Virus record (IMG/VR): IMGVR_UViG_3300045135_003632
Span: 1-22,007 of that record
Reading direction: 5' to 3' (one strand)
From: a virus
DNA length: 22,007 bases
The notes beneath the pieces are model-generated. The model saw only the letters and a program-made list of their open reading frames with translations. It was not told where the DNA came from and did not search any database. Position 1 is the first letter of the stretch, and each line of letters opens with the position of its first letter. The position numbers and the translations under genes are program-made. Of this stretch, positions 572 to 22,007 are shown piece after piece.

Positions 572-1251
572 CAGCGAAGGCCTTTCTTCCAGTCATCGAC
601 GCGCGCCCAGACCGCTACCGCGATCCCGGCCAGCACGAGGGCAATGAACAGCCAGCGCAGACTGTCGAGATAGGGGACCAGCGGAAGCACGGCACCTTGG
701 GCTTCTGCCAGCACCTCCTGCGCCACCTCGACCCCCGCGGCCCCAACCGTGGCGAGGCCCGCGGCCCCTGTCCCGCGCAGGGTTCGGCTTTCGGCCAGCA
801 ACTCGCGCGCGGGCGGGCTTTCCGGCGCGAACGGCACCGCCCGGACCGGGAACTTTTCGCCCCAGGTTCGCGCGGGTCCCAGATCGATGTGCATGAAGCC
901 CGAGCGCGGATAGTAGCCGAAGCCGAGGAAGCCCACCTCCCGCGCCACCGCCTCAAATGCCACCGGATCATGGTTCGCCATGGCAATATCAAACGCCGTA
1001 CCGTCCATATGCTTCGAGCGGGTTGCCCCGCCCACCGCCCGATTATGCTCGGGGCTGCGATAGGCTGAGCGAAGGATCAACGGCTTGCCCAGCCGGTCAC
1101 GAAGCGCCTGCAGCTTGTCCATGGCTTCCGGGTGCAGCTTCAACTGGCCCGTTCCACGGCAGGCTATTTCCGCGGGCGAGAACTTCTTCCAGCGCCATGC
1201 GCGCTCGGGCACATCGCGCCAATGACGGTAGGTTTTGACTGGTTCAGGCAT
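571..1251 (-). CDS. M15-family peptidase endolysin with a C-terminal membrane segment
   Basis: A 226-residue protein whose first ~130 residues are a zinc D-Ala-D-Ala-type peptidase of family M15 (Peptidase_M15_3-like). The zinc and catalytic pattern is visible: SKHMDGTAFDIA supplies His81 and Asp88, and MHID supplies His121. Such domains cut peptide cross-links in peptidoglycan. There is no N-terminal signal peptide. Residues ~200-217 form one hydrophobic segment followed by a short charged tail, so the enzyme is probably membrane-tethered. The ATG at 1251 is chosen over the upstream in-frame one at 1281 because GGAAGG lies just before it and it overlaps the end of the preceding small gene. 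It is translationally linked to the spanin pair downstream, making a lysis cassette. Confidence 0.85.
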   Translation of the reverse strand: MPEPVKTYRHWRDVPERAWRWKKFSPAEIACRGTGQLKLHPEAMDKLQALRDRLGKPLILRSAYRSPEHNRAVGGATRSKHMDGTAFDIAMANHDPVAFEAVAREVGFLGFGYYPRSGFMHIDLGPARTWGEKFPVRAVPFAPESPPARELLAESRTLRGTGAAGLATVGAAGVEVAQEVLAEAQGAVLPLVPYLDSLRWLFIALVLAGIAVAVWARVDDWKKGLR

Positions 1252-1381
1252 CGGGGCCTTCCGTGACGATCTCGCCCTCATGGGTGAGCGTCACGCCGAC
1301 GGTGAAGCCCACATGCCGGCCGTCTTGAAAGACCGGAGCGTTGGCAAAGGGCAGCGAGAGGTAGCGCGGGGTCTCAGCCAT
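1244..1381 (-). CDS. Small hypothetical phage protein, 45 residues
   Basis: A 45-codon frame starting at ATG 1381, with GAGGAG about 7 nt upstream, and stopping at TGA 1246-1244. It starts inside the end of the preceding 63-residue gene (8-nt overlap) and ends 8 nt inside the endolysin gene, the same coupled layout as the rest of the operon. The protein starts MAETPRYLSLPF and has no membrane segment or recognisable motif. It is supported by the ribosome binding site, the perfect fit between neighbours and the absence of any other gene in this gap. The function is unknown. Confidence 0.6.
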   Translation of the reverse strand: MAETPRYLSLPFANAPVFQDGRHVGFTVGVTLTHEGEIVTEGPDA

Positions 1382-1565
1382 GATAGGTCTCCTCAATGAT
1401 GGCGGTGATCTGGGCATCGGTCATGCGCGCGCCGCCTTCGACCTCGATCTCGATCGTGTCCTTGACCCGGAAATACGCCCCGACATTCTCGAGGATCTCG
1501 GCGCGGATGGTGGCGATGTTGCCGACCATGTCGCGGGCGAGGCTGATCAGTTTGATTTTGGTCAT
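1374..1565 (-). CDS. Small hypothetical phage protein, 63 residues
   Basis: A 63-residue protein with a mixed N-terminal half (MTKIKLISLARDMVGNIATI) and an acidic C-terminal half ending in an Ile-rich helix-like stretch (TDAQITAIIEETY). Its start overlaps the stop of the Cys-rich tail gene (ATGA at 1565-1562) and its end overlaps the next small gene by 8 nt, so it is firmly part of the late operon. I do not recognise the family. Its place between tail-end genes and lysis genes suggests a small tail-tip or fibre accessory protein, but that is only inferred from position. Confidence 0.65.
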   Translation of the reverse strand: MTKIKLISLARDMVGNIATIRAEILENVGAYFRVKDTIEIEVEGGARMTDAQITAIIEETYHG

Positions 1566-2413
1566 GTGGTGAACTTCCCGACATAGACCTCGAAGGTGAT
1601 CTCCCAGGTCGAACTGGTGTTGTCCGCGGGTGCCCAGGCCGACGGATAGGAAAAACAGCTCTCGGCGTAGTCCGTGGCCCTGACGCTCGTGTATTGGCGG
1701 TTTGAATGCTTGAACTCGGCCTTGACGGCATCGCCTTCGAGAAACACCGAGACAATCCGGCTGAGCCAGGGCGCGCCGCCAGGGATGAAGGCGCTTTCCA
1801 GAACGGTCGATCCATTGGCGGCGATCATCTCGCCATTGGGAATGGCACTGACAAACGTCCCGAAATCGCTCTGGCTGCCCGCAACGAGGCGATTTGCGCG
1901 CATCAGGACCAGCAGGAAATCCGGATTGGTCCCTACCGCCAGCGTGCCCAGCGTGTAGGTCTGGCTGTGTTCAAGCGCCGAGACCCGGTTGCCGCTGGAG
2001 GTGTAATAGCCCTCGACATCGACCCAGTCGCAGACCCTCTCGTAGCCGCAGCGTTCCTCATAGCCGCAGGAATAGACATTCTCGCAGACATATTGATAGC
2101 CGCAGACATTGCGGCCGAGGGCGAAATCATACTCACAGAGATACTGCGTCCCGCAGACGTAATCATAGCCGCAGGTGTAGACGTCGTTGCAGAGATATTC
2201 GTAATCGCAGCGGAAATCCCGGCAGCCAGACATGAAGGCGCTGACAAAGCCACTCGCGAGCGCCGCGGGGGTATCACCGCTTTCCGGAAATGCATGGGTG
2301 ATGGTGTGGGTCAGCACGGCGGCGATATGGGGCATGGGCGTGCCGGTATCAAAAACCACATCGCCGTTCGCGTCGGTGACGCGGATGATGTTGTCGCGGG
2401 CCTCAAAACTCAT
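1562..2413 (-). CDS. Tail-end protein with an 11-cysteine hexad array
   Basis: A 283-residue protein in three parts: an N-terminal segment of ~60 residues; a Cys/Tyr-rich array at residues 64-128; and a ~150-residue C-terminal region with Ser/Thr, aromatic and beta-prone sequence. Cysteines fall at 64, 69, 75, 81, 87, 93, 104, 110, 116, 122 and 128, so the step is six residues almost throughout, with one step of five and one of eleven. The unit is roughly C-G-Y-x-Y-V. The gene is coupled by ATGA overlaps to the genes on both sides and sits after tip protein J, where side fibres or receptor-binding proteins are often found. I do not recognise a family. A fibre or tip-adhesin role is inference from position and composition. 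Confidence 0.75.
   Translation of the reverse strand: MSFEARDNIIRVTDANGDVVFDTGTPMPHIAAVLTHTITHAFPESGDTPAALASGFVSAFMSGCRDFRCDYEYLCNDVYTCGYDYVCGTQYLCEYDFALGRNVCGYQYVCENVYSCGYEERCGYERVCDWVDVEGYYTSSGNRVSALEHSQTYTLGTLAVGTNPDFLLVLMRANRLVAGSQSDFGTFVSAIPNGEMIAANGSTVLESAFIPGGAPWLSRIVSVFLEGDAVKAEFKHSNRQYTSVRATDYAESCFSYPSAWAPADNTSSTWEITFEVYVGKFTT
2030..2224 (-). repeat. 18-nt in-frame repeat units coding the Cys/Tyr hexads
   Basis: Within the tail-end gene, units of about 18 nt recur in phase, each coding a hexapeptide that ends in Cys, with GCGGCTA-type blocks (coding C-G-Y) returning in several of them. The DNA copies differ mainly at third positions and in the variable residues, so the array is diverged rather than freshly expanded. 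One unit has been widened to eleven codons (residues 94-104). Confidence 0.8.
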
Positions 2414-3147
2414 ATGTGCACCCCGCGCCCCGCAGATCCGGCAAAGCTGCCAGTGTAGGTGGAAGATTGCAGCGCGACGCTGCCATCGGGCAGCACGACC
2501 TTGAGCCCGCCGCTTTGCACATCGGCCGTTTTGCCGGCGGTCACGAAGACATCCGGGGCGGCGCTTTCGCGGAGATAGCGATAGGCGGTGCTGAGCTTGC
2601 CAAAGCCTGCGCGAAACACGTTTGGCTCGATGCGGATGCTCTCATTGCCCAAGGGAGAAAAAAGCGTCTCGAAGAGAAACACGCGGTAGCGGCGGGTAAT
2701 GGCGGGCAGTGTATCGTCGAAGGTCACCCAGTTCTCGAAGGCGCGAAGCGCAGTGCCCGTGACAAAGATGCTGACAGCGCGGGCGCTTTCGCCGACCTGC
2801 TGAACGACGGTGCCTGAGGGCATCTGGGATGAGCCATAGAAGGGGATGAAAGGCACGACGCGACCGAAGCTGTGGCTGGCCAGATCAAAGGTCTCGGTGC
2901 CCTGGCGAGGGTTGTACCAGGTGGTTGAGCCGAAGAGGCCCTTGGAGGTCGAGGAACTGCGGGTGCGCTCGGGATGGGTCAGCGTCACATCAATCAGTTG
3001 CGCATTGCCAAGATAACTGAGGTCCGAGTGAAAATGCAGATCGCCCAGCTGGGGCCCGGTCGGGGTCTCATAGGTCGCCGGGGCAGCGTCACCCTTGTAG
3101 ATGAACACTTTACCGGTCGTGCCATCGGCATGAAGCGTGCGGGCCAT
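2410..3147 (-). CDS. Hypothetical phage tail protein, 245 residues
   Basis: A 245-residue soluble protein, rich in Thr, Ser, Gly and aromatic residues, with no signal peptide, membrane segment or coiled coil. Beta-prone stretches dominate (for example TGTALRAFENWVTFDDTLPA). The start overlaps the stop of the NlpC/P60 gene (TGATG at 3149-3145) and the stop overlaps the start of the Cys-rich gene, so the three are translated together. Position downstream of tip protein J suggests a structural tail-tip or fibre-linked protein. I do not recognise the family. Confidence 0.7.
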   Translation of the reverse strand: MARTLHADGTTGKVFIYKGDAAPATYETPTGPQLGDLHFHSDLSYLGNAQLIDVTLTHPERTRSSSTSKGLFGSTTWYNPRQGTETFDLASHSFGRVVPFIPFYGSSQMPSGTVVQQVGESARAVSIFVTGTALRAFENWVTFDDTLPAITRRYRVFLFETLFSPLGNESIRIEPNVFRAGFGKLSTAYRYLRESAAPDVFVTAGKTADVQSGGLKVVLPDGSVALQSSTYTGSFAGSAGRGVHI

Positions 3148-3800
3148 CAGGTTTTGATCCTCATGAAGCTCACCACCCAGGCCCGCCAGCGGGCATCAAA
3201 GTCCTGGATGCAGGAGGCGCGGTTCGGGAAGTGATGCAGGAAGAGGCCGTCGCCGAGATAGACGCCGCAATGGTTGGCGCGGTTCGGGCTTTCTTCGTCG
3301 CGACGTGACAATGAAAACAGGATCCCGTCGCCGGCTTGCGGCATGATCACCCGGTCCCAGCGGTGGAGTTCCGGGTTGGTCACGAAGACCCCGTCGGTCA
3401 GCCATTGGTTCACCAGCCGCTCCGGCGTGTCGGTCAGCATGGCCATCTCATGGCCGCGCTCGCGCGCCATCCAGTCGCGCACGATGGTGTAGCAGTCGTA
3501 TTGGCCGAGAACATAAGGGCGGCCCTCGTAGGGGGCAGCACTCTCCCAGGAGCGTGGCAGATGCAGGCGATGGCGACCACTCGGCCATTCGACGAAGACT
3601 GTCGGCTCTGTCACGTCCTGCACGACAGCCCCAAGATCGGGCACGGTGCGAAGATGGGCGAATAGGTTTTGGGGTGCGCTGAGCGCCAGGCTGATCCGTC
3701 CCGCCTCATGGAGCAGCCAGAGCTGGCGGCTCGGGTCTTCGGCCCAATACGCGCTTGCCGCGATCAGGGGCGAGAGGTCTTGCAGTTCGTGGGTGGTCAT
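3147..3800 (-). CDS. NlpC/P60-like tail-associated peptidase, second copy
   Basis: A 217-residue protein. The C-terminal ~120 residues look like an NlpC/P60 cysteine peptidase: YDCYTIVRDW supplies the nucleophile Cys at about residue 103, and NHCGVYLGDGLFLHHF supplies the His followed by the typical glycine-rich strand. The N-terminal ~90 residues could be a small accessory domain, not the JAB/Mov34 domain of lambda gpK. In lambda-like phages such proteins sit in the tail tip and help cut peptidoglycan or process the tip. This one comes after J rather than before it, and is the second such protein in the operon. It starts 10 nt after the J stop and overlaps the next gene by one base. Confidence 0.75.
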   Translation of the reverse strand: MTTHELQDLSPLIAASAYWAEDPSRQLWLLHEAGRISLALSAPQNLFAHLRTVPDLGAVVQDVTEPTVFVEWPSGRHRLHLPRSWESAAPYEGRPYVLGQYDCYTIVRDWMARERGHEMAMLTDTPERLVNQWLTDGVFVTNPELHRWDRVIMPQAGDGILFSLSRRDEESPNRANHCGVYLGDGLFLHHFPNRASCIQDFDARWRAWVVSFMRIKT

Positions 3801-3810
3801 GCGGTCAGGC

Positions 3811-6084
3811 TCACACGGTGATGGTGATGGTCTTGGCGTTGAGGTCGATCTTGAACTTGCCGTCGGCGCTGCGGATGACGCCGGCGGTGGCGGTGCCGAT
3901 GTCGGAGGTGATGGCGGAGAGTTGGGTGACGCTCATGACCTCAGCGCTGATCCCGCCTGCCGAGATAAGGCCCGCGATGACCGCGTCCCCTGCGAGTGTT
4001 GTACCGCTGCCGGGCGCGCCGAGTTCCCCGTTGATGTCGCTCGCATCAATCTCGCGGCTCCAGGCGCTGCCGGTCCAGCGGTAGAGCTTTGCATCACTGG
4101 TCAGGAAGACGACCCGGCCGGGGAGGTTCCCGGTCTCGGGAAGCGCTGACAGGATCTCGACGGGGGCGAGATTTGCGTCCTCCATCAGCCCTTTCAGCCC
4201 GCCGCGCAGGTCCTCCCCTTGAAGATAAATCCCGAGCGTGGTGACATCGAGCCAGCTTGACCACTCGGTCGGACGATCGAGCACATAGCGCCCCCGCACC
4301 TCGTATTCCGCCTCGGGCAAAAGTCCGTCCGAGACCAAAACCGAGCCGGCACCACGGTCCGCGATTCCGGAGGCTACGACCTGCGCCGTGGCCTTTAACC
4401 GGATCTCGTAGCGCACGAAAAGCGCGTCCAGCGCGGCGCTGCCCACCCAGGACAAGGTAATGGCAGGGCGACGGTCAAGGCCAAGTGCGTCCTTCAGCGT
4501 GCTGGCCGCCACCGACCAGCCGGCGATGATCTGCGGCGGGCGGGGGGCGAGGCCGGTGACCGGGACGACCGCGGGCAGGTCCTGATCGGAGGTCCAGCCA
4601 TAATCGGCCGGGTCGCGTTCTCGCAGCACCAGCTCTTGGTTGATCGTGACCGGATGGTCGGTGATCTCCACCACCTCGAAGATCTTGTTCGTGTAGCCGT
4701 TGCGTGCGCTTGTCCAGGCGATGGTGTCGAGCGGCTCGAGCAGGAAGGCCTCGGGCGGAAGGACGAGGCGGTGGGTGCGGAAGCGGCGCGCGTCCTTGAT
4801 GTAGGCGCTCATCAGCTGCGCGACTTGGCTGACCTCCGAGCAGGCCGGAAAGTTGAGGCTCGTCGAGAGGCGACGGCCACCGTCCTCGGCTTCCCAGGTG
4901 GCATTGAAAAGCGGGGGTGCCGCGCGCGAGGTCCAGAGGCTGGCGGGTTCGGGGTATTCCGAGGCGATGGCATTGGCGCTGGCCGCCAGCCCGGGAAACG
5001 GGTCCAGCTCCTGCGGCGCGGAGATGACGATGTCCTCGTCACTGATGAACTGCACCGGGGCCGCCGGGGCACCCACGCGCATCCGGAACACGCCACCCAT
5101 CTCGCTGATCTGCCCCAGGCAGGTTTTAGCCAGCTCGTCAATGACCTCGGCCGGCTCCATCTCCAGCTTGACCTCGAGGCCGGCGACAAAGCTGGGACGG
5201 CTGCCAATTGGCGCATCGCAGGCGTTCATCGCGGCGAACCAGTTATCAAGCGGCAGGTCATCCGCAGGCACATCGCCGCCCCAGATCTCGCCGGTCGGCA
5301 GGCGAATGCCGCGCAGGATGTTGTAGATCATCACAGCGGGGTTGGCGGAGCGCGCCCAGGTTAATGGAGCATGCCAGCGCTGTGCCCCACTGCCGCCGAC
5401 GCTGCTGTCAAACCGCGGATCGTAAAGCGGCACGCCGTCCAGCTCGAAGCGGACGGTGGGCAGATTGTTGAAAACTTCGCGGTTATAGCGCGCGGTTAGG
5501 ATCGCATAGGCGGTGCCGTGGCCGACAAAGCTGCTGCTCCAGGGTCGGTCTGGGTAGCTGGCGTATTTGGCGACCAGCATCGGGTCGGCTGCCGTTTGAC
5601 GGCCGTCGTAAAATTTGATCCAGGCGTGGTCTGTGCCGCCCACGCGCTGGTTCAACAGCGGGGAGCCATAGTCTGGGTGGGCTGTAGGGCCCAGGTCGGA
5701 ATAGCCATCATTCAGGATCACCCGGCTGAGACCAATGCCAGGCAGATCGCTGAGCTCGATCACGTAGGTGAGAAACCCGTTCGGCGTGCCTGCATCGTCA
5801 TGGCTCATCGGCGGGCAGACATGGTGGCCGGCGGTGGCAGTTCTCCCCAAGATAAATCCCTGCGGTTCTGTCCCACCGGTCGTGGTGACGGCAGTCTGGA
5901 TGCCGCTTTGCTTGATCGTGGTTTTGGGCGTCAGCGCCCGTGCGATCAGCGAAATCCCCACTGAGATGGCGGTATTGACCAGGATCGAGCCGATAAAGGA
6001 GCTCGCAGCAAAGGCCGAGACGGCCGAGATCGCCCCGCCAATGGCAGTCCCAATGGCGGCGATTGCTGCACCAACGGGCGGCAT
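3811..6084 (-). CDS. Tail tip / host-specificity protein, lambda J type
   Basis: A 757-residue protein, the largest in the tail module after the tape measure. It begins with ~50 hydrophobic Gly/Ala-rich residues resembling the membrane-like region of lambda gpI, which has no separate counterpart here. The middle (about 100-530) matches what I know of phage tip-attachment proteins, with hub-like segments. A fibronectin-type stretch follows at about 540-620. The C-terminal end holds a lyrical Ser/Ala/Ile-rich repeat-like segment closing with RSADGKFKIDLNAKTITI, similar to DUF1983-type ends of J proteins. It is expected to close the tail tube and contact the cell. Its start overlaps the upstream gene as TGATG. 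It is shorter than lambda J (over 1,100 residues). Confidence 0.85.
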   Translation of the reverse strand: MPPVGAAIAAIGTAIGGAISAVSAFAASSFIGSILVNTAISVGISLIARALTPKTTIKQSGIQTAVTTTGGTEPQGFILGRTATAGHHVCPPMSHDDAGTPNGFLTYVIELSDLPGIGLSRVILNDGYSDLGPTAHPDYGSPLLNQRVGGTDHAWIKFYDGRQTAADPMLVAKYASYPDRPWSSSFVGHGTAYAILTARYNREVFNNLPTVRFELDGVPLYDPRFDSSVGGSGAQRWHAPLTWARSANPAVMIYNILRGIRLPTGEIWGGDVPADDLPLDNWFAAMNACDAPIGSRPSFVAGLEVKLEMEPAEVIDELAKTCLGQISEMGGVFRMRVGAPAAPVQFISDEDIVISAPQELDPFPGLAASANAIASEYPEPASLWTSRAAPPLFNATWEAEDGGRRLSTSLNFPACSEVSQVAQLMSAYIKDARRFRTHRLVLPPEAFLLEPLDTIAWTSARNGYTNKIFEVVEITDHPVTINQELVLRERDPADYGWTSDQDLPAVVPVTGLAPRPPQIIAGWSVAASTLKDALGLDRRPAITLSWVGSAALDALFVRYEIRLKATAQVVASGIADRGAGSVLVSDGLLPEAEYEVRGRYVLDRPTEWSSWLDVTTLGIYLQGEDLRGGLKGLMEDANLAPVEILSALPETGNLPGRVVFLTSDAKLYRWTGSAWSREIDASDINGELGAPGSGTTLAGDAVIAGLISAGGISAEVMSVTQLSAITSDIGTATAGVIRSADGKFKIDLNAKTITITV

Positions 6085-6476
6085 CAGGGGGTTCTCACGG
6101 CAAAGGCGCGCCGCATTTGGCCGCGCGGGACAAGCCCGAGGCCCTGAGGCTTCAGGCAGTAGATCATCTCGCCAGCAATGATGCCGAAGGCGTTATCGTC
6201 GAGCACGGCGATATCGCCCACCTGTGCGAAAGCCGGGGCGATCTCAGGCAGATGGGCAGCCGCGAAATCTACGTGGTCGGTAAAACCCGCGTCTTCCAGG
6301 AGCTGCTGGCCCCGACGCAAGCTGCGATAGGTGCTGCGCCAGCCGCGGGCAAAGTCCTGACCCGTGGCGATCTTCACCCAGCCGGCCGCGAAGAGCGCGC
6401 AATCATGGCGGCCGGCCTGGAACGGCCGCTGGCCCGCCTCGGCGGCATAGGCGATGAGCAAGGACAGCCGGTCCAT
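6084..6476 (-). CDS. NlpC/P60-like tail protein (DUF6950-like)
   Basis: A 130-residue protein. GRHDCALFAAGWV near residues 22-34 is the nucleophile segment of an NlpC/P60-like fold, and GDIAVLDDNAFGIIAGEMIY corresponds to the central strands where the catalytic His would normally lie; a Phe occupies that region instead. This resembles, from memory, the DUF6950 group found just before J in alphaproteobacterial prophages. The ATG at 6476 is chosen because it overlaps the upstream stop exactly (TGATG, 6478-6474); an in-frame ATG at 6506 would lie inside the upstream gene. It occupies the slot of lambda K. Whether it is still enzymatic is doubtful because of the missing His. Confidence 0.75.
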   Translation of the reverse strand: MDRLSLLIAYAAEAGQRPFQAGRHDCALFAAGWVKIATGQDFARGWRSTYRSLRRGQQLLEDAGFTDHVDFAAAHLPEIAPAFAQVGDIAVLDDNAFGIIAGEMIYCLKPQGLGLVPRGQMRRAFAVRTP

Positions 6477-7087
6477 CAGGCGCGCTCCCGGCTCTCGCCC
6501 CACCACACACCGACTTCGCCTGCGATATCGGTGTAACGGCGGAAGGCGTCACCAGTATTCCGGCGGCGCATCTCGGCATCCGAGCGGGTCAGCGTCAGGG
6601 CGCGGGTAAGCCCACGCGCGGCGCTGGCCAGCGTGACCGTGGCCTCGCTGGTGCCGCCGACCTCGCCCGTGCGGATCTTTACCTCATCGACCCAGCCACG
6701 GAAGACGCGGATCGGTTCGGCAATGAGCTGGCCGGTCTCGAGGGACAAGAGCGCGCGGTGGACTTCGGCCGGGGCCAGGCGGGCATCATAGCCGCGCAGG
6801 AGCTGGGCGACCTCCGGCGTCAGTGGGCTTAGCGCCAGCTGAAGCATGCACACCTCGAGGCCGATACCGGCCCGGATCGGCTCCACGCCGATCAGACCGC
6901 CCGCGCCGTAATAGGTGCGGTTGACGCCATTGATGGCGATCGTCAGATGGTCGTCGCCCTGCCAAAGGCCGAGGGCTTCCAGCGCGCCGGTATCGCGATT
7001 GCGGGCGATGACATGCACCATGTGGCGGCCGGCCATGCCGGTGCGGGCGGCGAGATAGGCCGCAGAGGTCGGGTCGAGGAGGCGCAT
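6476..7087 (-). CDS. Minor tail protein, DUF2163-like
   Basis: A 203-residue protein starting MRLLDPTSAAYLAARTG and containing a beta-rich body (FRGWVDEVKIRTGEVGG). From memory it resembles the DUF2163 group of minor tail proteins found between the tape measure and the NlpC/P60 gene in phages and gene transfer agents of the Rhodobacterales. The ATG at 7087 is chosen over the longer frame to 7210 because the extra 41 residues are Arg/Pro-rich, lie over the brnT gene and promoter on the other strand, and have no family resemblance. The brnTA island separates it from the other minor tail gene (7950-8600). Confidence 0.7.
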   Translation of the reverse strand: MRLLDPTSAAYLAARTGMAGRHMVHVIARNRDTGALEALGLWQGDDHLTIAINGVNRTYYGAGGLIGVEPIRAGIGLEVCMLQLALSPLTPEVAQLLRGYDARLAPAEVHRALLSLETGQLIAEPIRVFRGWVDEVKIRTGEVGGTSEATVTLASAARGLTRALTLTRSDAEMRRRNTGDAFRRYTDIAGEVGVWWGESRERA

Positions 7088-7105
7088 GGGAGGGTCCCTG
7101 GTTGT

Positions 7106-7149
7106 CGTTCTCTTGACGAACGGGGAGGCAAATCGTATATACAGATGCG
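7106..7149 (+). promoter_or_regulatory. brnTA promoter with overlapping inverted repeat
   Basis: TTGACG (7113-7118) and TATATA (7136-7141) are separated by exactly 17 bp, close to the sigma-70 consensus. A perfect inverted repeat CGTTC-N7-GAACG (7106-7122) covers the -35 box and could be the BrnA operator; BrnA-type antitoxins are known to repress their own promoters. The brnT ATG lies 9 nt after the -10 box, so the transcript would have almost no leader. Confidence 0.65.
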
Positions 7150-7392
7150 ATGGATCTGGAGTTTGACGCCGAAAAGGACGCGGCGAACCGCGCCAAACAC
7201 GGTGTCCCACTCGCAGAGGCCGTGAAGTTTGAGATGTTGGCCGTTCTTGAGGACGATCGGTTCGATTACGGCGAACAAAGATTCCGGGCCTGGGGCATGA
7301 TCGACGGCGTGTACTTCGCCTTGGCCTTTACGATCCGTGGCGAAAAAGTTCGTCCAATCAGCCTGCGTCGGGCTCATGCACGGGAGATCTAG
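7150..7392 (+). CDS. brnT: BrnT-family toxin (DUF497)
   Basis: An 80-residue protein with the BrnT pattern: an N-terminal FDAEKDAANRAKHGV segment, the central DDRFDYGEQRF stretch, and the C-terminal RPISLRRAHAREI end. BrnT toxins are small RelE-like ribonucleases that stop translation and are held inactive by BrnA. The length is normal for the family (~80-95). It is the first gene of a plus-strand pair set in the minus-strand late operon, divergent from the DUF2163-like gene with a 62-bp gap. It has no Shine-Dalgarno motif at usable distance and may be translated leaderless. The brnA antitoxin follows after 4 nt. Confidence 0.88.
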   Translation: MDLEFDAEKDAANRAKHGVPLAEAVKFEMLAVLEDDRFDYGEQRFRAWGMIDGVYFALAFTIRGEKVRPISLRRAHAREI

Positions 7393-21095: not shown

Positions 21096-21317
21096 ATGAC
21101 CATGGCTATCACCACCATCCGCATCGCTCACGCTGCCCTGCCGGAGCATCTCGACTGCTCGCGCCCCGATACCGTCGCCGCAGCCATAGAAGCCGCGCTG
21201 CGCGAAGAGGGCATCACCGCCGACGCCTCCGACGTGATCTCGCACATCAAAATCGAACTTCCGACTACCCAGCTCGCCGCTGCCAGCACCCTGCTCGCCA
21301 GCCTCCAGCTGATTTGA
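21096..21317 (+). CDS. Small hypothetical protein of the accessory block
   Basis: A 73-residue protein (MTMAITTIRIAH; alternative start at 21102 gives 71 residues) with an Ala-rich helical middle (DTVAAAIEAALREEGI) and a Leu/Ala-rich end. It has no membrane segment and no motif I can name. It is the first gene after the terminase break and is followed after 10 bp by the next plus-strand gene. No clear ribosome binding site precedes either start, perhaps because the upstream control region was lost at the junction. Confidence 0.55.
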   Translation: MTMAITTIRIAHAALPEHLDCSRPDTVAAAIEAALREEGITADASDVISHIKIELPTTQLAAASTLLASLQLI

Positions 21318-21327
21318 GGGGGCCAAG

Positions 21328-21609
21328 ATGAGCACCCGCGCGCAGATCGCCATCCAGATCGGACCCGAGGAATGGGCCCACACATATGTGCATTTCGACG
21401 GCTACCCCGAGCACATGCTGCCCGCACTGGCTGCATGGACGCCTGACGACATTCTTGCCGCCCGCGAGATCCGGCAGGTCACCGCTGAGGCGCTGGACTG
21501 CTTCGACCCGCCGCGCGCGCCAATCGTCTATCCCGAGCCCCGCTGCGATTTCTCCCACAGCTATGTGTTCGCACAAAGCGGCTGGATCGAATGGAGGGCG
21601 GGCCAATGA
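21328..21609 (+). CDS. Hypothetical accessory-element protein, 93 residues
   Basis: A 93-residue protein starting MSTRAQIAIQIGPEEWAHTY and continuing with HFDGYPEHMLPALAAW and SHSYVFAQSGWIEWRAG. I recognise the general pattern from small proteins encoded on plasmids and integrative elements of the Rhodobacteraceae, but I know of no assigned function. AGGGGG precedes the ATG by 6 nt, and the stop overlaps the next start as ATGA (21606-21609), so the block is an operon. Confidence 0.75.
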   Translation: MSTRAQIAIQIGPEEWAHTYVHFDGYPEHMLPALAAWTPDDILAAREIRQVTAEALDCFDPPRAPIVYPEPRCDFSHSYVFAQSGWIEWRAGQ

Positions 21610-22007
21610 CCACGCACCCCATCTTGCCCAGCCAAAACGAGGACTACGGCTTCTTCCGCACCCTAACCGTCTGCCCAGAGCGCGACCGCCGCAGTGCGGA
21701 GGTCTGGGCGCTCGCCTCGCGCCTGATAGCTGAGGCCATCGGGGCCGAAAGCGAAGAGGAGATGATCGGCATCCGCGACTTTCTGGACAGCCGCATCGGT
21801 CGGCATTTCGCCGACGATGTCGTCGGCAACATGACCGGCTGCAACAGCGGGCTCGAGCCTGCCATCGCCTCCGCGATCCGCCGCTGGCAGGGTTGGCGCA
21901 TCGACCGCACCACAGAACGCTCCGAGGGCATCCCCGCGGGGCTGCCATACCTCACGGGCTGGGTGCAGCATTTCGCGGTGACGGCCGCGATGGAGGACAC
22001 AGAATGA
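21606..22007 (+). CDS. Hypothetical accessory-element protein, 133 residues
   Basis: A 133-residue soluble protein starting MTTHPILPSQNEDYGFFRT, with a helical, acidic middle (AEAIGAESEEEMIGIRDFLD) and an aromatic C-terminal region (IRRWQGWRIDRTTE, then LTGWVQHFAV). The ATG at 21606 is preferred over 21591 because it overlaps the preceding stop (ATGA) and has GGAGGG about 8 nt upstream. The function is unknown. It belongs to the same tightly packed block, which by resemblance is plasmid or integrative-element accessory cargo. Confidence 0.7.
   Translation: MTTHPILPSQNEDYGFFRTLTVCPERDRRSAEVWALASRLIAEAIGAESEEEMIGIRDFLDSRIGRHFADDVVGNMTGCNSGLEPAIASAIRRWQGWRIDRTTERSEGIPAGLPYLTGWVQHFAVTAAMEDTE
22004..22007 (+). 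other. Start of a further gene cut by the window edge
   Basis: An ATG at 22004-22006 overlaps the preceding stop as ATGA, with GGAGG about 7 nt upstream. The same overlap style joins the two previous genes, so another operon member probably begins here; nothing of its product is visible. Confidence 0.45.

Follow-up and report, generated by a model that had tools for sequence, protein, structure and literature searches.

Cross-strand disulfides staple the antiparallel hairpin of theta-defensins and of other hairpin antimicrobial peptides, which are short and secreted and carry closely spaced rungs. The stalk of the bovine ultralong CDR H3 is a long two-stranded ribbon with a YxYxY motif (PMC5994613). 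Among phages, Milano has a disulfide network in its tail and baseplate, with the inter-subunit bonds given in Table 1 of that study (PMC10811340), and phage T1 has inter-subunit disulfides in its tail tube (PMC11945409). Four conserved cysteines hold an iron-sulfur cluster in the RcGTA hub (PMC7296036), and the C-terminus of the JBD30 hub (gp53) docks into the receptor-binding protein gp54, which is encoded adjacent to it (PMC11445458).

The protein described here, referred to as the ladder protein, is encoded in a 22,007-base virus record, the whole of which was analyzed and is called the window. Its predicted hairpin, like that of the theta-defensins and related peptides, would be stapled by cross-strand disulfides, but it is far longer, lies inside a virion-type protein, and has a rung every six residues. 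As in Milano and T1, disulfides would be present in a tail protein despite assembly in the cytoplasm, and Milano, like this phage, has an alphaproteobacterial host. However, the Milano and T1 bonds join subunits of the sheath, tube, and baseplate, whereas the ladder lies within a single chain and the cysteine content elsewhere in the tail is low. Like the CDR H3 stalk, the predicted hairpin is a ribbon that leaves a compact beta domain and varies in length and at its tip; unlike it, the ladder has its putative disulfides as rungs of the stalk rather than in a knob, and the two proteins are unrelated. The ladder protein is encoded beside a J/hub gene, as is gp54 of JBD30, but the two have no sequence match, gp54 has an alpha-helical bundle and we found no cysteine ladder described for it (PMC11445458), and docking is a candidate arrangement here. 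Both cystine-ladder hairpins and disulfide-bonded tails have precedents. For their combination, a single-chain ladder of ~100 Å in a tail-tip module with six-residue rungs and variants in rung number, we found no description in the open-access literature searched.

Cysteine array of the ladder protein

The original prediction placed eleven cysteines at residues 64, 69, 75, 81, 87, 93, 104, 110, 116, 122, and 128, and all eleven stand at exactly these positions (codons at 2030-2224) in an intact ORF encoding 283 aa (Table 1); the twelfth cysteine of the protein is C253. The spacing between neighbors, which had been described as a strict six-residue step, is six residues in 8 of 10 cases, with a first step of 5 and one step of 11 (5, 6, 6, 6, 6, 11, 6, 6, 6, 6). 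Eight six-residue steps never arose when the segment was shuffled 200,000 times or the whole protein 100,000 times. Cysteine makes up 4.2% of the ladder protein versus 0.87% of the other listed ORFs in the window, a background that includes a doubtful 17-cysteine ORF at 21265-21948 and is in truth lower. The tyrosines that had been noted as alternating between the cysteines do so in the sense that they stand at Cys+2 and Cys+4, that is, on the same strand face as the cysteine. The array is not a reading-frame artifact because the protein is conserved, synonymous changes dominate the flanks, and the array cysteines are kept. A scan for promoters and terminators near the ladder gene gave no excess over shuffled sequences.

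TABLE 1 Features of the ladder gene and of the tail-tip genes next to it in the window
Feature	Position	Strand	Basis
Cys-ladder tail-tip protein, 283 aa	1562-2413	minus	Intact ORF, ATG start, relatives L002-L009, L012-L014, L154
N-terminal core, residues 1-60 (FEA.N.IRV.D..G.VVFDT..PMPHI)	2234-2413	minus	Invariant block, alignment A4
C64	2222-2224	minus	Conserved, off six-residue register (step 5 or 7), no ladder partner
Predicted hairpin arm 1: C69, C75, C81, C87, C93	2135-2209	minus	Cys spacing, AF2 strands, face analysis
Predicted hairpin tip, residues 94-103, turn 97-100	2105-2134	minus	AF2, relatives
Predicted hairpin arm 2: C104, C110, C116, C122, C128	2030-2104	minus	Cys spacing, AF2 strands, face analysis
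C-terminal core, residues 144-283, slow-evolving, GKFT at end	1565-1984	minus	Alignments
C253	1655-1657	minus	Inside C-terminal core; invariant across all relatives
J/RcGTA-megatron-like tail-tip protein	3811-6084	minus	phrog_5616 2.4e-176, PF13550
J C-terminal motif, last ~33 residues	3814-3912	minus	Common to all module-bearing fibers, motif comparison
NlpC/P60-fold tail peptidase-like protein	3147-3800	minus	Pfam PF00877 3.4e-06
Partner protein, 245 aa	2410-3147	minus	A7 alignment; no Cys; no family match
Small protein, 63 aa, after ladder gene	1374-1565	minus	Related ORFs in L003, L004, L009

Relatives with arms of equal length

Scans of viral contigs and genomes yielded relatives L002 to L009 and L012 to L014, which are 51 to 91% identical to the window protein; L014 derives from the same prophage as L003 and has identical DNA in the ladder gene. 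A divergent three-rung member, L154 (32% identity), was found through a CGxE pattern. Members have a VVFDT..PMPHI-type N-terminal motif and a GKFT[TI] C-terminal core (alignments A4 and A6). Relatives are located in the genomes of Pseudorhodobacter, Roseovarius, and another member of the Rhodobacteraceae, which suggests that the host range of the phage lies in this family.

With the first, off-register cysteine left out, the ladder has 5+5 cysteines in the window protein, L002, L003, and L012 to L014, 4+4 in L004 to L009, and 3+3 in L154. Every member therefore has two equal cysteine arms, with six-residue steps throughout and one central loop, and unequal arms do not occur, while the changes in arm length amount to only about two events. 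The innermost cysteines are separated by 10 residues in the 5+5 form and by 10 in the 4+4 form apart from L009, which has 14, and by 8 in L154. Within the array, C64 is the sole cysteine outside the ladder and the sole one off the six-residue step (5 or 7). The proteins of L004 to L008 have 11 cysteines, and because this number is odd, at least one of them (C190) is free or bonded elsewhere.

No match to the ladder protein was found among annotated phages, plasmids, Pfam, NCBIfam, PHROGs, or PDB sequences apart from a weak one to phrog_4062 (best E value of 0.0069 among 12 members), which covers only the N-terminal part of the window protein; a search with phrog_4062 gave no match anywhere, controls included, and is thus uninformative. 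The family is rare, since profile searches of 395, 385, and 398 genomes at the family, class, and phylum levels recovered only the known prophage G001, and a profile of the partner protein proved equally rare. A scan of viral contigs for six cysteines at six-residue steps returned at least 120 stretches, nearly all of them microsatellite-type or out-of-gene translations, and no second Cys/Tyr ladder family was recognized among the stretches listed. A scan with a Cys/Glu pattern gave the known members and noise only.

Viral ORFs with a cysteine at every third residue (C-x2-C-x2, e.g., DCTNCTNC) were observed in L110, L075, L054, and L137. Their repeats run for tens to more than 100 residues, some follow a WVDxxxNKW-like N-terminus, and they may represent a different cysteine-repeat family.

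A tail-tip module behind three types of tail

One strand of the window carries genes for terminase, portal, protease, tail terminator, tape measure, distal tail, hub, DUF6950 peptidase, and a J/megatron-like protein in an RcGTA-like tail order. In all loci examined (the window, L003, L004, L009, L154, and G001), the gene directly upstream of the ladder gene encodes the partner (~243 aa). In the window, L003, L004, and L009, J and the partner are separated by an NlpC/P60-like gene, which is not found behind J in L154. The module formed by the J C-terminal motif, the partner, and the ladder protein occurs behind three tail types. The fiber is GTA-like in the window (phrog_5616) and lambda-J-like in L154 (1433 aa; phrog_31, FNIII-A_GpJ), while that of L009 (817 aa) matches the J profile in its later regions only and belongs to a differently organized tail locus. 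The J C-terminal motif, which reads ITSDIGTATAGVIRSADGKFKIDLNAKTITITV in the window and ISADLGEVTAGVLKSTDNKFVIDLNNKTISIEV in L154, and the genes downstream of it travel together. Such a module, spanning GTA-like, lambda-like, and other tails, is undescribed, and it points to likely determinants of host range in phages that infect the Rhodobacteraceae.

The same slot is occupied in Xylophilus phage Lumi, where a J-like protein with the same end motif, a giant tail protein, is followed by a split partner and then by gp028 (WCD44167.1). This 157-aa protein has the same N-terminal core as the ladder protein (hhalign probability of 91%, E value of 9.7e-07, residues 2 to 38, an alignment of 37 residues only) and a similar end, YVGQF, and the ladder is absent. 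The absence of the hairpin from this relative suggests that it was inserted into a small, beta-rich protein of the tail tip.

Predicted hairpin and its two faces

AlphaFold2 (AF2) models were obtained for monomers of the window protein (12 sequences) and of the divergent L009, from alignments of 10 to 12 related sequences. In the window model, strands 64-96 and 101-133 are joined by a turn at 97-100 (center, 98.5), with a pLDDT of about 80 in the hairpin (mean for the whole model, 74.5; pTM, 0.52). The eleven-residue step, which had been read as a loop in a solenoid, is placed at the hairpin turn. The L009 model has strands 63-91 and 98-126 despite its longer tip (mean pLDDT, 62.9; pTM, 0.46). 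Register sums agree with the cysteine pairs in both models (197 = 93+104 and the other pairs in the window protein, 189 = 87+102 and the other pairs in L009), but the AF2 register is not independent of the cysteines, which AF2 tends to pair, and a constant pair sum is automatic for two six-step arms, so that the nontrivial observations are the equal arm counts and the position of the turn. From cysteine spacing and these models, the array is very probably one long antiparallel beta-hairpin. In the model, opposite cysteines (93/104, 87/110, 81/116, 75/122, and 69/128) would make five rungs six residues apart on strands of ~33 residues, a predicted length of roughly 100 Å.

When the hairpins of eight members were read as paired strands, the ladder cysteines and most Tyr, Phe, and Trp residues fell on one face, and Val, Glu, and Gly fell on the other. 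The cysteine-bearing face is 56% aromatic, 0% Gly, and 14% charged, versus 1% aromatic, 16% Gly, 35% charged, and 28% Val/Ile/Leu for the opposite face, counts that are not independent because the sequences are related. Cross-strand Tyr-Tyr/Phe pairs adjoin the cysteine pairs. An aromatic face borne by a two-stranded ribbon suggests that this face is covered, either by a partner protein or by further copies of the ladder protein.

In the latter case, a trimeric or higher bundle with its Cys/Tyr faces turned inward would form a stiff beta-prism shaft held by both inter- and intrachain disulfides. An isolated two-stranded sheet with so aromatic a face, which is normally buried, and the threefold core of RcGTA-type baseplates (PMC7296036) speak for such a bundle, which we regard as a tenable if tentative proposal. 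It overlaps with the stapled hairpin arm that we favor, which leaves the oligomeric state free.

It is improbable that the hairpins of two or three subunits stack through this face so that each rung level binds Zn or an Fe-S cluster and the shaft is pinned by metal. The cysteine pairs are invariant and all lie on one aromatic-rich, likely buried face, thiolates would be favored by assembly in the reducing cytoplasm, and cysteine-bound Fe-S clusters occur in the RcGTA hub and in lambda gpL (PMC7296036). However, a single hairpin offers two cysteines per level, the levels are six residues (about 20 Å) apart, a motif check found no CxxC, CxC, or HxH in the array, and a single His occurs among the non-Cys ladder positions of the eight members. 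Conserved cross-strand cysteines in exact register are, moreover, the usual geometry of disulfides. The metal-binding needle put forward in the original prediction by analogy with His-x-His iron-binding fibers found no positive support, and the array has no such pairs.

Fold searches returned weak matches to generic beta proteins, the best VIA Z score (5.4) lying under the meaningful level of that tool; a match in BFVD (A0A8S5T8D1, E value of 3.4e-04) is an uncharacterized podovirus protein. The weak top matches from Foldseek include long hairpins of pore-forming proteins, as would fit a membrane-inserting hairpin of which several copies form an outer-membrane pore for DNA passage. We consider such a pore very unlikely, given that the best Foldseek E value is 3.4e-03 and the TM-scores of ≤0.15 among the matches listed up to rank 34 are those of generic long hairpins, that a lipid-like character is missing from both faces (one is 35% charged, and the other bears Tyr/Cys/Gln/Asn/Asp), and that the strands far exceed the thickness of a membrane.

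A beta-solenoid or hexapeptide left-handed helix, with stacked coils and a column of cysteines, shares the six-residue periodicity known from left-handed beta-helices but is scarcely credible, because it needs coil corners every six residues whereas the models of both the window protein and L009 predict one turn between strands that run without a break (64-96 and 101-133 in the window protein), and because equal loss of repeats on both sides of a central loop is not expected of it. The arms change length together, as cross-strand pairs require, which argues for the antiparallel hairpin. Of the forms first envisaged for the array, the disulfide ladder is retained, as a hairpin, and the solenoid is not.

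Variation and possible recombination in the array

Relatives with an identity of 80% or more retain all 11 array cysteines, and every array cysteine compared, as well as C253, is invariant across the family. Apart from its cysteines, the array varies more than any other part of the ladder protein, with an identity of 24 to 56% at non-Cys positions versus 54 to 88% in the flanks (members other than the two closest). In four window-type pairs, dN/dS in the non-Cys array codons was 2 to 5 times that of the flanks, for instance 0.36 versus 0.15 (window and L013), 0.48 versus 0.11 (L002 and L013), and 0.26 versus 0.05 (window and L002). Free replacement of the cysteines in an otherwise conserved protein had been named as the pattern that would refute the original prediction, and the opposite was seen. 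Fixed scaffold cysteines beneath a fast-changing surface form the pattern that an exposed host-contact element with covalent bracing should show. Judging by where the gene lies and how fast it evolves, we give a host-contact role for the ladder protein an even chance.

At the DNA level, L013 and L014 (both at 6001-6849) share an identity of 99% in the array and of 87% in the C-terminal part; for the window and L013, the corresponding values are 71% and 87%. Such values would fit a history in which segments of the ladder gene were swapped by recombination.

A proposed stapled arm at the tail tip

The best explanation as a whole, and one that we hold to be likely, is a disulfide-stapled hairpin arm at the tail tip that projects toward the host. 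J would carry the ladder protein and its partner on its conserved C-terminal stretch, at the far end of the phage tail, a terminal position that is plausible because the JBD30 hub docks a neighboring receptor-binding protein through its C-terminus. The rungs are probably oxidized to disulfides and would close once the particle is out of the reducing cytoplasm; such late oxidation is realistic because disulfide-bonded tails are established for Milano and T1. A bond between C64 and C253 would tie the base of the hairpin to the core. So stapled, the hairpin would act, either singly or packed into an oligomer by way of its aromatic face, as a stiff arm whose length would be set by the number of rungs (3, 4, or 5) and whose variable tip and outer face would be shown to the host surface.

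A bolder and rather unlikely extension is a modular covalent ladder in which the reach of the arm is tuned by the gain or loss of whole rungs, each strand changing by one six-residue repeat at the same time, and the rungs serve as a redox timer. The arm would be reduced and soft at assembly, locked after release, and perhaps reopened at the host surface, which would trigger infection.

If the rungs of the stapled arm are closed, the protein would contain a naturally occurring cystine ladder, a hairpin of about 100 Å within a single chain that follows a simple rule (C-x-Y-x-Y-x, equal arms) and has natural variants of 3, 4, and 5 rungs. It would then offer a model for building and lengthening stiff beta arms and for the use of disulfides after assembly in a reducing cytoplasm.

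Other genes of the tail locus

Two NlpC/P60-type or related proteins flank J in the window; the DUF6950 gene (6084-6506, minus strand) precedes it, and the other follows it directly. The small gene that ends the module (1244-1417, minus strand) encodes 57 aa in the window versus 94 to 128 aa in L003, L004, and L009, and an M15 peptidase gene stands directly after it. The window lacks, as if by deletion, the genes that come next in L003 and L004 (138 aa, 122 or 502 aa, and more). The hub-like tail protein of the window (phrog_2048; 6476-7210, minus strand) has a single cysteine, and its counterpart in L004 has none; since the RcGTA hub has four conserved cysteines, the hubs of the window and L004 seem to lack an Fe-S cluster. 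In L154, the gene that separates the gpI-like gene from the lambda-like J (6249-7289, minus strand) encodes a 346-aa protein that resembles metallophosphoesterases by eye (GDMH, GNHD, and GGHIH).
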